This document shows positions 39,352 to 49,176 of a DNA stretch of 64,000 nucleotides, in pieces. The stretch is taken from NCBI RefSeq assembly GCF_014696825.1, contig NZ_JACJQU010000004.1, forward strand, positions 1 through 64,000. Reading direction: 5' to 3'. Positions within the stretch are counted from its first letter, which is position 1; every line of letters starts with the position of its first letter. This DNA is from Anabaena sphaerica FACHB-251 (GTDB lineage Bacteria; Cyanobacteriota; Cyanobacteriia; Cyanobacteriales; Nostocaceae). The notes under the pieces are model-generated. The model searched no databases. It was not told the origin of the DNA and saw only the letters and a program-made list of their open reading frames with translations. The position numbers were made by a program, and so were the translations under genes.

Positions 39352-39599
39352 AGAGGGATAAATCAAGATATTGTATAATTTAATTTTGTCCTGTTGATGA
39401 TGCGTTTATCTGTGTTCAGAATAAATTAGCTCTAAAGATAGATAAATAATCAACATCATCAATGATTTAATTCAAAAGAGTCTTTCACTTCTGTAAATAA
39501 GGTTTGGTAAAACACCAAGCCTTTTATATTTTTATAAACACTGGTAATTTATAAATATTGAATATACATCAAGAAATACTAAATATTGAAAAACCATAA

Positions 39600-44693: not shown

Positions 44694-45737
44694 TCAATTT
44701 TTTTTCTGAGATAAATCCAACAAATTCGCCAACTTATAAACTATTCTCGCACCTACATTACCATCCCATTCTGCATCACCAACTTCATTTACATCAAACC
44801 CAATAATCTTTCTCCCACTCTTCACAACTTCCCTAAATAAACAATAAACCTGCTCTAATTCCAACCCTCCCGGAACCGGAGTTCCTGTATTTGGACAGAG
44901 TTTAGGATCTAAACCATCAACATCAAAACTAATATGCACATTTTCAGGTAAATTACTTACTATTTCCTGACATAAATCAATCCAAGTTTTACCAGCATAT
45001 TGTTGTTGTTTGATCGCTGAATCATAATAAGCAACAACCCGATTATTAGAACCATTAATTATTTCCACTTCATCAATACAAATATCTCGCAAACCCACCT
45101 GAACTAACTTAGAAATTTGCGGTATTTTCAGCGCATTGAACATAATCGACGCATGGGAAAATTCAAATCCTTCGTAAGCGTCCCGTAAATCTGCGTGTGC
45201 GTCAATATGCAAAATACCAAAGTCGGGATATTGATTTGCTAAAGCTTGGAAATAACCCAAAGGTGAACTGTGATCACCACCAATAACAGCAACTTTTTTA
45301 CCCTGACTCATTGCTTGCTGACATTGAGTAAACAACCATTGATTTACCTGTTCACCAGCTTGATTAATTTCTGTGAGTATAGGTGTTAAATCTGGTGATT
45401 CTGTGATTGCTTTACCTTCCGATTGTCTGGCAATTATTTTAGCTGCTTGTTGACGATAATAGTTATTTTTATCTAAAATCTCTTGAGGAATTTCTACTAA
45501 ATAAATTCCCTGTTTCCAACCATCAGGATTATCAAAATCAAATAAATCTATTTGATAAGAAGCATCTAAAATTCGTTGTGGTGCATTTGCTGTTCCTGCA
45601 CCGTAAGAAACCGTGACTTCCCAAGGTACAGCAAAGACAATTAAATTAGCCGAATCATAATCGTCAGGTAAACCCAATAGATTACCATTAATTGCAGCTA
45701 TACCGCTAGGATTGTAGTCTTGGATTTGGTTACTCAT
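44694..45737 (-). CDS. speB: Ureohydrolase (agmatinase/arginase family)
   Basis: A 347-aa binuclear-manganese hydrolase of the arginase/agmatinase superfamily. Metal ligands are His156 in GGDHSS, Asp179/His181/Asp183 in DAHADL, and the Asp residues of SFDVDGLDP (270-278). An N-terminal extension and the DVNEVGDAEWDGNVGAR end place it in a subgroup that also includes arginases and guanidine hydrolases, so agmatine is the likely but not proven substrate. It lies immediately downstream, on the same strand, of the terminator array (45814-47010). Confidence 0.85.
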   Translation of the reverse strand: MSNQIQDYNPSGIAAINGNLLGLPDDYDSANLIVFAVPWEVTVSYGAGTANAPQRILDASYQIDLFDFDNPDGWKQGIYLVEIPQEILDKNNYYRQQAAKIIARQSEGKAITESPDLTPILTEINQAGEQVNQWLFTQCQQAMSQGKKVAVIGGDHSSPLGYFQALANQYPDFGILHIDAHADLRDAYEGFEFSHASIMFNALKIPQISKLVQVGLRDICIDEVEIINGSNNRVVAYYDSAIKQQQYAGKTWIDLCQEIVSNLPENVHISFDVDGLDPKLCPNTGTPVPGGLELEQVYCLFREVVKSGRKIIGFDVNEVGDAEWDGNVGARIVYKLANLLDLSQKKN

Positions 45738-45813: not shown

Positions 45814-45857
45814 AAAATAAAATTAGCACTCCGACTTTGCTAAGGAAGAGGGGTGCT
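45814..45857 (-). terminator. Hairpin at the speB-proximal end of the array
   Basis: The minus strand reads AGCACCCC, a long loop, GGAGTGCT, then AATTTTATTTT. The loop is long, so it is weaker than the other six. Confidence 0.45.
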
Positions 45858-45906
45858 TGTTGTTCCGGAAACACTACTAATCGAATCGAGGGCGATGGTT
45901 ACACAT

Positions 45907-45937
45907 TAAAAAAAAGGTTTGGCTGTGAACCAAACCT
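45907..45937 (-). terminator. Array terminator 1
   Basis: On the minus strand AGGTTTGG pairs with CCAAACCT across a 7-nt loop, followed by a run of eight T. Confidence 0.85.
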
Positions 45938-46115
45938 CTATAATTGCTGTGCTTAACAACGTACTAAATTAATTTAGTTCTAGTCTGCTTACAGATCATC
46001 TTCCTAGAGGATGTGTCCAAATACCCCAAAAACTGATAAAGCATTACTTGGTGCAAATCTTAAATCTGCTCTTATTTAACAGTATAAAAGCCCATAAGTA
46101 TCTATCTAAAGTATG

Positions 46116-46144
46116 AAAAAGGCTTGGACTCAAGCCAAGCCTTT
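46116..46144 (-). terminator. Array terminator 2
   Basis: Minus-strand stem GGCTTGG with CCAAGCC, followed by TTTTT. The stem shows a U-to-C/A-to-G pair change relative to terminator 1. Confidence 0.82.
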
Positions 46145-46145
46145 G

Positions 46146-46225
46146 TATATACCAGGTGTTTACCATATATAGTTAATTTAAACTCTGTTTTATTCTAGTT
46201 CATCTCTCTATTAGGTGTGTACAAA
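46146..46225 (-). ncRNA. Candidate small RNA, array unit 2
   Basis: The region runs from the conserved TTGTACAC box (46200-46225) to terminator 2. It contains the 32-bp core shared with unit 4 (ATTAACTA, then ATGGTAAACAC, then TGGTATATA on the minus strand). A -35-like TTGTAC and a -10-like TAGAAT lie in the box region with a long spacer. No coding frame is evident. Confidence 0.4.
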
Positions 46226-46277
46226 ATTTATAAAACCTGCTATTTAACACCACTCACAACTAAACATCAATCTGCAT

Positions 46278-46309
46278 AAAAAAAACACCCTAGAATAATA
46301 TCTAGGGTG
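46278..46309 (-). terminator. Array terminator 3
   Basis: Minus-strand stem CACCCTAGA with TCTAGGGTG, followed by eight T. This stem is unrelated in sequence to its neighbours but in the same position in the unit. Confidence 0.85.
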
Positions 46310-46507
46310 AATACACTTTTTTCAGGCATTAATAAACTGAATAATACTTTCAGTAAATCGATATTTTCACTACCTAAAGGATAATTAAACTAGGTTTTCA
46401 TCTTATCTATGAGTAATAATTAACATCCTGTAAAATCAAAACTTGAAAATTAAGATTTTAGACTGCTTAAAGAAGTAGGGAATCTCAATTGCTATTTTTT
46501 CTAAGAC

Positions 46508-46535
46508 AAAAAAGGCTTGGTGATGAACCAAGCCC
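46508..46535 (-). terminator. Array terminator 4
   Basis: Minus-strand stem GGCTTGG with CCAAGCC and a TTCATCA-type loop, followed by six T. Confidence 0.85.
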
Positions 46536-46619
46536 AGATATATACCAAGTGTTTACCATATCTAGTTAATGTAAGCCTACTTAGATTTCATATCATCTAC
46601 CTAGAGGATGTGTACAAAT
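46536..46619 (-). ncRNA. Candidate small RNA, array unit 4
   Basis: The box TTTGTACACATCCTCTAGG (46601-46619) is followed on the minus strand by a -10-like TATGAA and then the 32-bp core shared with unit 2, ending at terminator 4. A transcript starting near 46580 would be about 70 nt. Confidence 0.4.
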
Positions 46620-46725
46620 TTGAGATCATCTGTTATCGATTGACCCTATTTTACCCTAGTGTGGCCATCGTCAACCCTACCATGATTGAGAATGATGTAA
46701 GATTTTCATTAAGATAATACTAACT

Positions 46726-46757
46726 AAAAATAAAGGCTTGGTGTTGCACCAAGCCTT
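46726..46757 (-). terminator. Array terminator 5
   Basis: Minus-strand stem AAGGCTTGGTG with CACCAAGCCTT around a 3-nt loop, followed by TTTATTTT. Confidence 0.8.
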
Positions 46758-46871
46758 GAATAGAAGTAGATTATATTTTCATAATTTAGCTAGTTTATTT
46801 GATAAATTAATCAGTCTATAGGAAGTATGATTTTTGGAAATCTAATATTAATGGCTGATTCTATAAATGAT

Positions 46872-46900
46872 AAAAAAAAAGGTTTAGCTCCGCTAAACCT
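46872..46900 (-). terminator. Array terminator 6
   Basis: Minus-strand stem AGGTTTAGC with GCTAAACCT, followed by nine T. Confidence 0.85.
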
Positions 46901-47201
46901 CCATAGAAAGCAGTTATTCGACACACCAAGATTAATTTAAATCTACTCCTATTTATAGTCATCTTCCTATAGGAAGTGTTCAAATATTTACATATCTGAT
47001 AGGGACTGACTCTGTTGAAAGTTTTGAGAAGTCTACTATCAAAGGATAGATTTAAAATGCCTATTATTAGCTTCTAAAATAATATTATCACAAAGTTTTA
47101 AAAAAGACTTATTGATTACTTAATTTTATATAGGCTGAAAGTTAGAAATGAGTAGAATTTAGTTAAAAATTATTCGCTAGTTAATCTATCTATAATGTTG
47201 A

Positions 47202-47378: not shown

Positions 47379-47589
47379 CTTTACAACCTTCTAAGTTCCT
47401 AAATTTACTGATAAGGCAATTGAGCCTTATCTTTACCTTATAAAACAAAAAGAGCGATCGCTTCTGACTAATGGTGTATTAATTATTTCATTCCCTTGAC
47501 AGATACGGTTTTAATTTAAATTTCATGCTGATTTCATTTTTGTATGCAAACATAGTCGGGTGGTGATGCTGCTGTGAGTGAATTGCTTC

Positions 47590-49176
47590 ATGAATGACTT
47601 CTTAACACAGAAAATACCGTATCCGCAATTTTGGCGTATTGCTTGTATATCTGGGATACTTGTAAATATTATTTTCGCAGTTAGTCCAGCCAAAGTTTTA
47701 GCACACGCTGGACATAATCACGAGTTTAAAACTGATACAGAAATTACTACCCCAGAAGGAATTAGTGTTGATGCTCAAACAGCTAAACGCATAGGAATTA
47801 TAGTTAAACCTGTAAAGCCGCAATTTCTATCAATTGGTATCAAAACAACTGGAAAAATTGAAACTTTACCAAATCAAAAAGTACCAGTTACACCACCAAT
47901 TGAGGGTAAAGTTGTGGAGTTATTAGTTAAACCTGGTGCTGTGGTAAAAAAAGGTGAAACTGTCGCGGTTTTATCAAGTTCTGATTTAGCAGAGTTGCGG
48001 GTGAATTCCCAAGAAAAACGTGCGGAAGCACAAGCAAATTTACAACAAGCACAAGCTGATTTCCAGTTAGCACAACAAAATTTAGAACGTCAGCGACAAA
48101 TTGCCAAAGCGGAAATTAATCAAGCACAGACTGAACTGAGGGTAGCACAGGAACAATACGATCGCGATCGCACTTTAGTCCAAGATGGTGCGCTTCCCCG
48201 TCGTCAAATGTTAGAGTCAGAAGCACATTTAGCCGAAGGTAAATCCCAACTTACCAAAGCTTCCAGTCGTCGAGAAGTTATCGAAGCCGAAGCGCAATTA
48301 AAACGCGCTCAAGCATCGGTGGAAGTTGCTAAATCTCGAATTCAACTCAGCAGTGCTGCTTATAATGCGCGGTTACAACAATTGGGAACTTTGGCTAATT
48401 CTCAAGGATTAGTAACAGTAATTGCGCCAATTTCTGGCATAGTTGCAGAAACACCAGTGACATTAGGAGAAACGGTGACAGTTGATGCTGATAGCAAACC
48501 ATTAATGACTATTGTTAATGATAATCTGGTATATGCTACAGCAAATATTTATGAAAAAGATTTGAAAAAAATAAAAAAAGGTCAACAGATTAGAGTTACA
48601 GTTGCTAGCTTACCAAATCAAACTTTTTCAGGACGCATTAATTTAATTGGTGCGGTGGTGGAAGATGAAAAGCGGGTGATTCCGGTGAAAGCAGAATTAG
48701 TTAATTCTAGCGGTGTTTTGAAACCGGGGATGTTTGCAGAATTAGAAGTTTTAACAGATAAAACCGCAAATGCAGTTATAGCAATTCCTTCTCAAGCAGT
48801 TGTAGATGTGAATAGTAAGCAGGTGGTTTATGTGCAGAATGGGGAAAATTATCAACCTGTAGAAGTAGTTTTGGGGGAAAGTTCGGGGAATTTGGTTGAG
48901 GTGAATTCGGGGTTATTTGCGGGTGATTTGTTAGTAACTCAAGGTGCTATGCAATTATACGCGCAATCTTTGCGGGGTGGTAATAAAGAGAAGGAATCTA
49001 AATCTGAAAGTTTGGAAACCAGTAGGGGTGGGGTTTCCCCACCCTTACCGTGGTGGTGGGTTTTACCTGCTGGGGGAGTGTTGACGGTTGGTAGTTTTTG
49101 GGTGGGTAGAAGAAGTTCTGTATCGAACCGCAGAGACGCAGAGGACGCAGAGAGAGAAGTTGAGAGTGTGGGGTAA
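47590..49176 (+). CDS. RND efflux periplasmic adaptor (CusB/CzcB type)
   Basis: A 528-aa membrane-fusion protein. A signal/anchor helix is followed by a His-rich AHAGHNH stretch and a barrel-sandwich hybrid domain (VTPPIEGKVVELLVKPGAVV). A long helical hairpin (about 140-260, many Gln and Ala) and a second lipoyl half (VIAPISGIVAETPV) follow. It couples the pump to an outer-membrane channel; no TolC-like gene is adjacent. A GTG at 47578 is an alternative start. The last ~18 residues (from VSNRRDAED) come from a dispersed repeat. Confidence 0.9.
   Translation: MNDFLTQKIPYPQFWRIACISGILVNIIFAVSPAKVLAHAGHNHEFKTDTEITTPEGISVDAQTAKRIGIIVKPVKPQFLSIGIKTTGKIETLPNQKVPVTPPIEGKVVELLVKPGAVVKKGETVAVLSSSDLAELRVNSQEKRAEAQANLQQAQADFQLAQQNLERQRQIAKAEINQAQTELRVAQEQYDRDRTLVQDGALPRRQMLESEAHLAEGKSQLTKASSRREVIEAEAQLKRAQASVEVAKSRIQLSSAAYNARLQQLGTLANSQGLVTVIAPISGIVAETPVTLGETVTVDADSKPLMTIVNDNLVYATANIYEKDLKKIKKGQQIRVTVASLPNQTFSGRINLIGAVVEDEKRVIPVKAELVNSSGVLKPGMFAELEVLTDKTANAVIAIPSQAVVDVNSKQVVYVQNGENYQPVEVVLGESSGNLVEVNSGLFAGDLLVTQGAMQLYAQSLRGGNKEKESKSESLETSRGGVSPPLPWWWVLPAGGVLTVGSFWVGRRSSVSNRRDAEDAEREVESVG
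49120..49156 (+). repeat. CGCAGAG-family repeat at the 3' end of the adaptor gene
   Basis: It starts GTATCGAACCGCAGAGACGC and continues with CAGAG units. The same start occurs at 52243 inside the pump gene. Confidence 0.75.

Follow-up and report, generated by a model that had tools for sequence, protein, structure and literature searches.

Two described small RNA (sRNA) systems of heterocystous cyanobacteria come closest to the locus analysed here. One is NsiR1 (RF02399), whose sibling copies NsiR1.1 and NsiR1.4 have partly different targets; most multi-copy sRNA loci described so far have copies that act redundantly (PMC9045159). The second system is 4547237r of Nostoc sp. PCC 7120, an sRNA of about 51 nt that is restricted to heterocystous strains and has been observed under prolonged nitrogen deficiency and in dense cultures (PMC4734099). 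Rfam family RF02596 (cyano_het_sRNA) is probably based on this RNA.

The window, i.e. the whole stretch of 64,000 nt analysed from the genome of Anabaena sphaerica FACHB-251 (6.19 Mb, 44 contigs), harbors a tandem array of related units on the minus strand ( Table 1 ). No description of this array was found in the literature searched, which covered few subscription journals, including under the terms RF02596, NsiR8, sibling sRNAs and the letters of the promoter box. The array is likely to represent a co-regulated set of six distinct sibling base-pairing sRNAs of 50-60 nt, each with its own promoter and terminator and all under one activator.

Architecture of the array

The first-pass annotation had described six minus-strand intrinsic terminators in a gene-free stretch upstream of speB. 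All six were recovered (stems in Table 1 ), at a measured spacing of 145-226 bp (previously 145-230 bp), and the 3.4-kb stretch scanned contains 10 terminator-like sites versus 1.7 ± 1.2 in shuffled sequences. The reported identity of units 2 and 4 at 30 of the 32 positions of a shared core proved exact, and the palindrome attributed to unit 6, CTTCCTATAGGAAG, is present. Of the extent first given (45814-47010), the units reach as far as 46984. The stretch described as gene-free contains a possible ORF of 58 aa (47378-47205, minus) between the array and the HlyD-type gene. This ORF is Cys/His-containing and matched no family in a Pfam search; by its sequence, it looks like a short metal-binding protein.

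Each unit has, in order, an upstream box, a -10 hexamer, some 19-27 nt peculiar to that unit and an intrinsic terminator. Clear -10 hexamers occur in five units (TAAATT in four of them, TACATT in unit 4), and the predicted RNAs fold into a weakly structured 5' part followed by a strong terminator hairpin. In having several related units that possess separate promoters and terminators, the locus has the makeup of a multi-copy (sibling) sRNA locus. The box had been assigned to the RNA units and placed upstream of every stem. The placement holds for units 1, 2, 4, 5 and 6, where 76-83 nt lie between the first base of the box and the stem, whereas unit 3 has a variant. As to the assignment, the box is best read as a promoter element and not as a part of the RNA. 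The predicted start of unit 6 derives from its alignment to RF02596 (46927-46877; 25.1 bits, below threshold).

Table 1. Coordinates of the predicted array and its flanking genes in the window. Promoter scores are from the relatives-only profile; unit-model scores are from a covariance model that has the units of the window among its training sequences.
Feature	Coordinates	Strand	Particulars
Whole array, six predicted sRNA units	45907-46984	minus	Transcription order C-G-B2-F-B1-A (units 6 to 1); type order same in relatives
Unit 6 (type C) promoter box TTTGAACACTTCCTATAGGAAGATGA	46959-46984	minus	-10 TAAATT 46939-46934; 56.8 bits
Unit 6 (type C) predicted sRNA	46871-46927	minus	Stem 46902-46878; 98% conservation of the 5' part across 53 loci
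Unit 5 (type G) diverged promoter box AAATCATACTTCCTATAGACTGATTA	46808-46833	minus	-10 TAAATT 46788-46783; unit model 66.2 bits
Unit 5 (type G) predicted sRNA	46725-46776	minus	Stem 46757-46733; about ten loci have related G units
Unit 4 (type B2) promoter box TTTGTACACATCCTCTAGGTAGATGA	46593-46618	minus	-10 TACATT 46573-46568; 56.6 bits
Unit 4 (type B2) predicted sRNA	46508-46561	minus	Stem 46535-46513; unit model 111.5 bits; 62 loci have type B
Unit 3 (type F) variant promoter box around TATCCTTTAGGTAGTG	46368-46392	minus	Similar box precedes unit 3 orthologues
Unit 3 (type F) predicted sRNA with TTAATGCCTGAAAAAAGTGTAT	46279-46337	minus	Stem 46309-46286; orthologues in 53 loci
Unit 2 (type B1) promoter box TTTGTACACACCTAATAGAGAGATGA	46200-46225	minus	-10 TAAATT 46180-46175; 54.2 bits
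Unit 2 (type B1) predicted sRNA	46113-46168	minus	Stem 46144-46118; unit model 105.6 bits
Unit 1 (type A) promoter box TTTGGACACATCCTCTAGGAAGATGA	45996-46021	minus	-10 TAAATT 45976-45971; 71.7 bits
Unit 1 (type A) predicted sRNA	45907-45964	minus	Stem 45939-45913; only array unit above RF02596 threshold
speB, arginase/agmatinase family (PF00491)	44694-45737	minus	One flank of array, downstream on the array's strand
HlyD-type efflux gene	47578-49176	plus	Other flank of array

Promoters

A promoter profile of 56 nt, built from 251 promoters of relatives and none of the window, was used to score the upstream regions. Units 1, 6, 4 and 2 obtained the high scores given in Table 1, while 200 shuffles of the region never rose above -8.3 and five shuffled 64-kb windows gave -9.2 to -13.2, so that the box matches of these four units withstand comparison with random sequence. 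With the same profile, unit 5 scored -6.1 bits and unit 3 gave no distinct score. Despite these low values both are considered members of the array, since they match the unit covariance model (unit 5, 66.2 bits; unit 3, 27.5 bits; window units among the training sequences) and have orthologues in relatives. Their diverged promoters may be weak.

The consensus derived from 267 distinct upstream sequences comprises the box TTTGkAyACAtCCTaTAGGaAGATGA, a spacer of about 19 bp and TAAATTAa. Taking the first base of RF02596 as +1, the palindrome TCCTATAGGA is centered at about -42. The array promoters have a -10 element and lack an ordinary -35 element, an arrangement suggestive of class II-type, activator-dependent promoters in which the activator would overlap the -35 position. 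Given this layout, one regulator probably switches on all units, and the array points to a regulator with a clear predicted binding site. At up to one mismatch, the box occurs in this genome solely in the array units and in a solitary RF02596 copy, and the box together with the -10 element in the array alone. A genome scan for a wider regulon of protein genes carrying the box yielded none at 0-1 mismatch; at up to three mismatches, matches were not clearly commoner than those of a reversed-pattern control.

Comparison with NsiR1 and RF02596

NsiR1 characteristically forms a tandem array upstream of hetF, and its expression is HetR-dependent and heterocyst-specific. A seven-copy NsiR1 (RF02399) array is present on another contig of the same genome (C13:54250-55234, 63-71 bits), with DIF1-type TCCGGA promoters. 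It adjoins a gene encoding a CHAT-domain, HetF-like protein, which we take to be HetF. The first-pass annotation had called the array upstream of speB separate or relocated; as the NsiR1 array sits elsewhere in this genome, the former term stands and the latter is dropped. That the array could be NsiR1 itself, moved or duplicated, is suggested by the common architecture of tandem short RNAs with their own promoters and terminators, and by a weak alignment of unit 3 to RF02399. This alignment, the best in the array, reaches 23.6 bits against a threshold of 39. Furthermore, the unit covariance model found no match in the NsiR1 array, the HetF-like gene lies on a different contig from the speB-side array, and the array promoters contain no DIF1 TCCGGA, the sole TCCGGA between 45000 and 48000 being at 45864, downstream of unit 1. 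Identity with NsiR1 is highly improbable and was rejected on score, place and promoter, although a distant common origin of the two families is possible. The lone DIF1-like TCCGGA (45864-45869) falls in the interval that separates unit 1 from speB, some 130 bp ahead of the start of speB, and may be due to chance.

The predicted RNAs of the array resemble NsiR1 in being tandem sRNAs of about 60 nt in heterocystous cyanobacteria, each with its own promoter and terminator, and differ from it in sequence, promoter (no DIF1) and place. Also, NsiR1 is present in Nostoc sp. PCC 7120 as seven identical copies, whereas each unit of the array is a distinct type, kept apart across genera.

Comparison of the units with Rfam 15 recovered a single match above threshold in the array, unit 1 to RF02596 (38.7 bits, threshold 35.7). 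Units 4, 6 and 2 match this family below threshold (25.7, 25.1 and 21.3 bits), and units 5 and 3 also miss it. One of the six units of the window thus reaches an Rfam family. When ten relatives were compared with Rfam, the type A unit alone passed RF02596, in 8 of the 10, and RF02596 matches occur in 117 of 193 genomes of the same family. The strongest copy in the A. sphaerica genome is solitary (C11:111856-111911, 80 bits) and is preceded, at the same distance, by the same promoter box, CATCCTCTAGGAAGATG. It is also the single clear solitary copy found outside the array with the unit model. The array units and RF02596 are similar in length and terminator. However, RF02596 describes one RNA with a single strong copy per genome, while the array comprises up to eight ordered types, most of them unrecognised by Rfam.

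Distribution and conservation among relatives

Homologous loci were collected through weaker second RF02596 matches (20 arrays) and through an exact type A string (66 named stretches), for a total of 86 fetched loci, some of which are duplicates of each other. Because the loci were selected through type A, the figures for its conservation and frequency are overestimates. The string was found in Nostoc, Anabaena, Dolichospermum, Aphanizomenon, Sphaerospermopsis, Cylindrospermum, Calothrix, Fortiea, Richelia and other genera. The 86 loci contain 283 distinct units of types A, B1, B2, C, D, E and G; type F was found through its own sequence, giving eight types in all. Wherever several types occur their order is constant, C-G-B2-F-B1-A-D-E, and the window carries its first six members (C-G-B2-F-B1-A). 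The array and its boxes are thus conserved across Nostocaceae, in many genera, as the earlier proposal would have it.

In a class-wide sample, the unit covariance model was positive in 15 of 16 genomes of the same family and in 0 of 275 cyanobacteria of other families. This agrees with the restriction of RF02596 to heterocystous cyanobacteria, the heterocystous status of the family being taken from organism names. Within a same-family sample 62 of 118 genomes were positive, mostly with 4-8 units, and the remainder had none at that threshold. The distribution reads as that of a clade-specific, nearly all-or-none system. In one relative (G080) 11 units were counted, among which units of equal score are paired at a distance of exactly 5,266 bp (C1:3133831-3134260 and C1:3139097-3139526), which suggests that the whole array was duplicated in tandem, or else an assembly artefact.

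The genes flanking the array vary among relatives and include speB, a phycobilisome-linker-like gene, a HU-like gene and others (the latter names assigned by eye). speB neighbors the array here and in 12 of the fetched loci, a number that includes duplicates, downstream and on the same strand, as would be expected if the units were serial attenuators or terminators within one long leader transcript controlling speB. Yet other genes flank the array in most relatives, the order of units is kept without speB, and the units have separate promoter parts, each with its own box and -10 element (the box of unit 3 being a variant). A speB leader is accordingly very unlikely and was rejected on the changing neighbors and the per-unit promoters. 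The tie to speB made in the first-pass annotation is abandoned, speB being an incidental neighbor since flanking genes differ between genera.

Sequence identity was measured on three types that had no part in the choice of loci, namely B1, C and D. Pairwise identity averages 73-83% for the box, 44-67% for the spacer, 86-93% for the -10 element, 87-97% for the 5' part of the RNA, 54-67% for the stem-loop and 31-34% for the sequence just downstream. The sequence flanking the units is close to random, with low identity both upstream and downstream. Terminator stems vary and stay paired (forms GGTTTGG, GGCTTGG, GGTTTAG and GGCGTGG keep their partners, and 95.5% of cells are paired), and the covariation test on the aligned units counted 65 double-changed cells versus 23.9 in shuffles. 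The notion that sequence drifts under a kept structure consequently applies to terminator stems and spacers, but not to the 5' region of each unit, which is nearly frozen across genera (98% conserved in types C and D). Terminator covariation by itself shows no more than a terminator; a functional RNA is indicated more strongly by the frozen 5' parts.

These patterns also bear on whether the units could be terminator-like repeats, tandem or mobile, that have no function. The occurrence of related, palindrome-bearing copies in tandem would fit such repeats, as would the apparent presence of the array twice, about 5.3 kb apart, in relative G080. Against this, order is fixed across genera, conservation is type-specific and limited to promoter, RNA and terminator, and just one clear solitary copy occurs elsewhere in the genome, making this explanation scarcely credible.

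Proposed function and targets

In the proposed set of sibling sRNAs, each unit would be transcribed singly from the minus strand, from its own promoter to its own intrinsic terminator, into an RNA of about 50-60 nt in which the terminator hairpin is preceded by a short 5' segment, specific to the unit and for the most part weakly structured. One activator, presumably acting at the palindrome near -42, would turn on all units together, along with the solitary relative elsewhere in the genome, so that a single signal would activate several short RNAs simultaneously. The 5' segment of each RNA would then base-pair in trans with its own set of mRNAs. Pairing is proposed on the basis of 5' conservation and the NsiR1 precedent (PMC9045159), and action in trans is favored because the neighbors of the array change between relatives. 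As the units differ in their conserved 5' parts, distinct targets per unit are plausible.

Seven seeds were scanned for duplexes with 1,932 start regions, drawn from 2.45 Mb (about 40% of the genome), and the best energies obtained overlap those of shuffled-seed controls. The most promising duplex, at -24.0 kcal/mol, placed type B2 across the start codon of a gene for an AAA-type ATPase (C2:712019-713344); it was dropped when no matching element appeared at the listed orthologues, which were those of more distant genera.

The RNAs could instead titrate a protein or another RNA, without pairing with mRNAs, in which case the copies would merely raise the dose. This would accommodate a target scan that supported no mRNA target, and units that have promoter, overall shape and terminator in common. 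A dose effect, however, predicts that copies stay alike, whereas each type holds its own 5' sequence across genera and it is the shared stem that varies; we regard titration as unlikely. The members of the array have been kept distinct and ordered across genera while stems and spacers changed, which offers a natural test of additive dosage versus divided labour.

A more far-reaching form of the sibling-sRNA reading is put forward tentatively. A regulator whose palindrome is used almost solely by this RNA family might fire a fixed, ordered set of up to eight sibling sRNAs with frozen targeting segments and so relay one signal to several groups of mRNAs, i.e. an sRNA regulon contained in one locus and confined to one heterocystous clade. 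The array is a candidate for an extra layer of control in a clade used for studies of heterocyst differentiation.

Additional solitary elements

Copies resembling NsiR1 are dispersed in the genome besides the seven-copy array, at C20:21964-22014 (51.4 bits, above threshold), C5:56332-56389 and C2:551063-551113 (36.0 and 31.5 bits, below threshold). A weak solitary G-like relative of the array units occurs in the window itself (39420-39532, plus; 35.8 bits, E ~1e-4 in the window). It follows directly on a murD-like gene, lies 6 kb away from the array and may represent an additional, diverged copy. The unit model also matched, again weakly, a solitary element elsewhere in the same genome (C1:261119-261232, minus; 38.3 bits), which has the palindrome TCCTTAAGGA at the position of the box.
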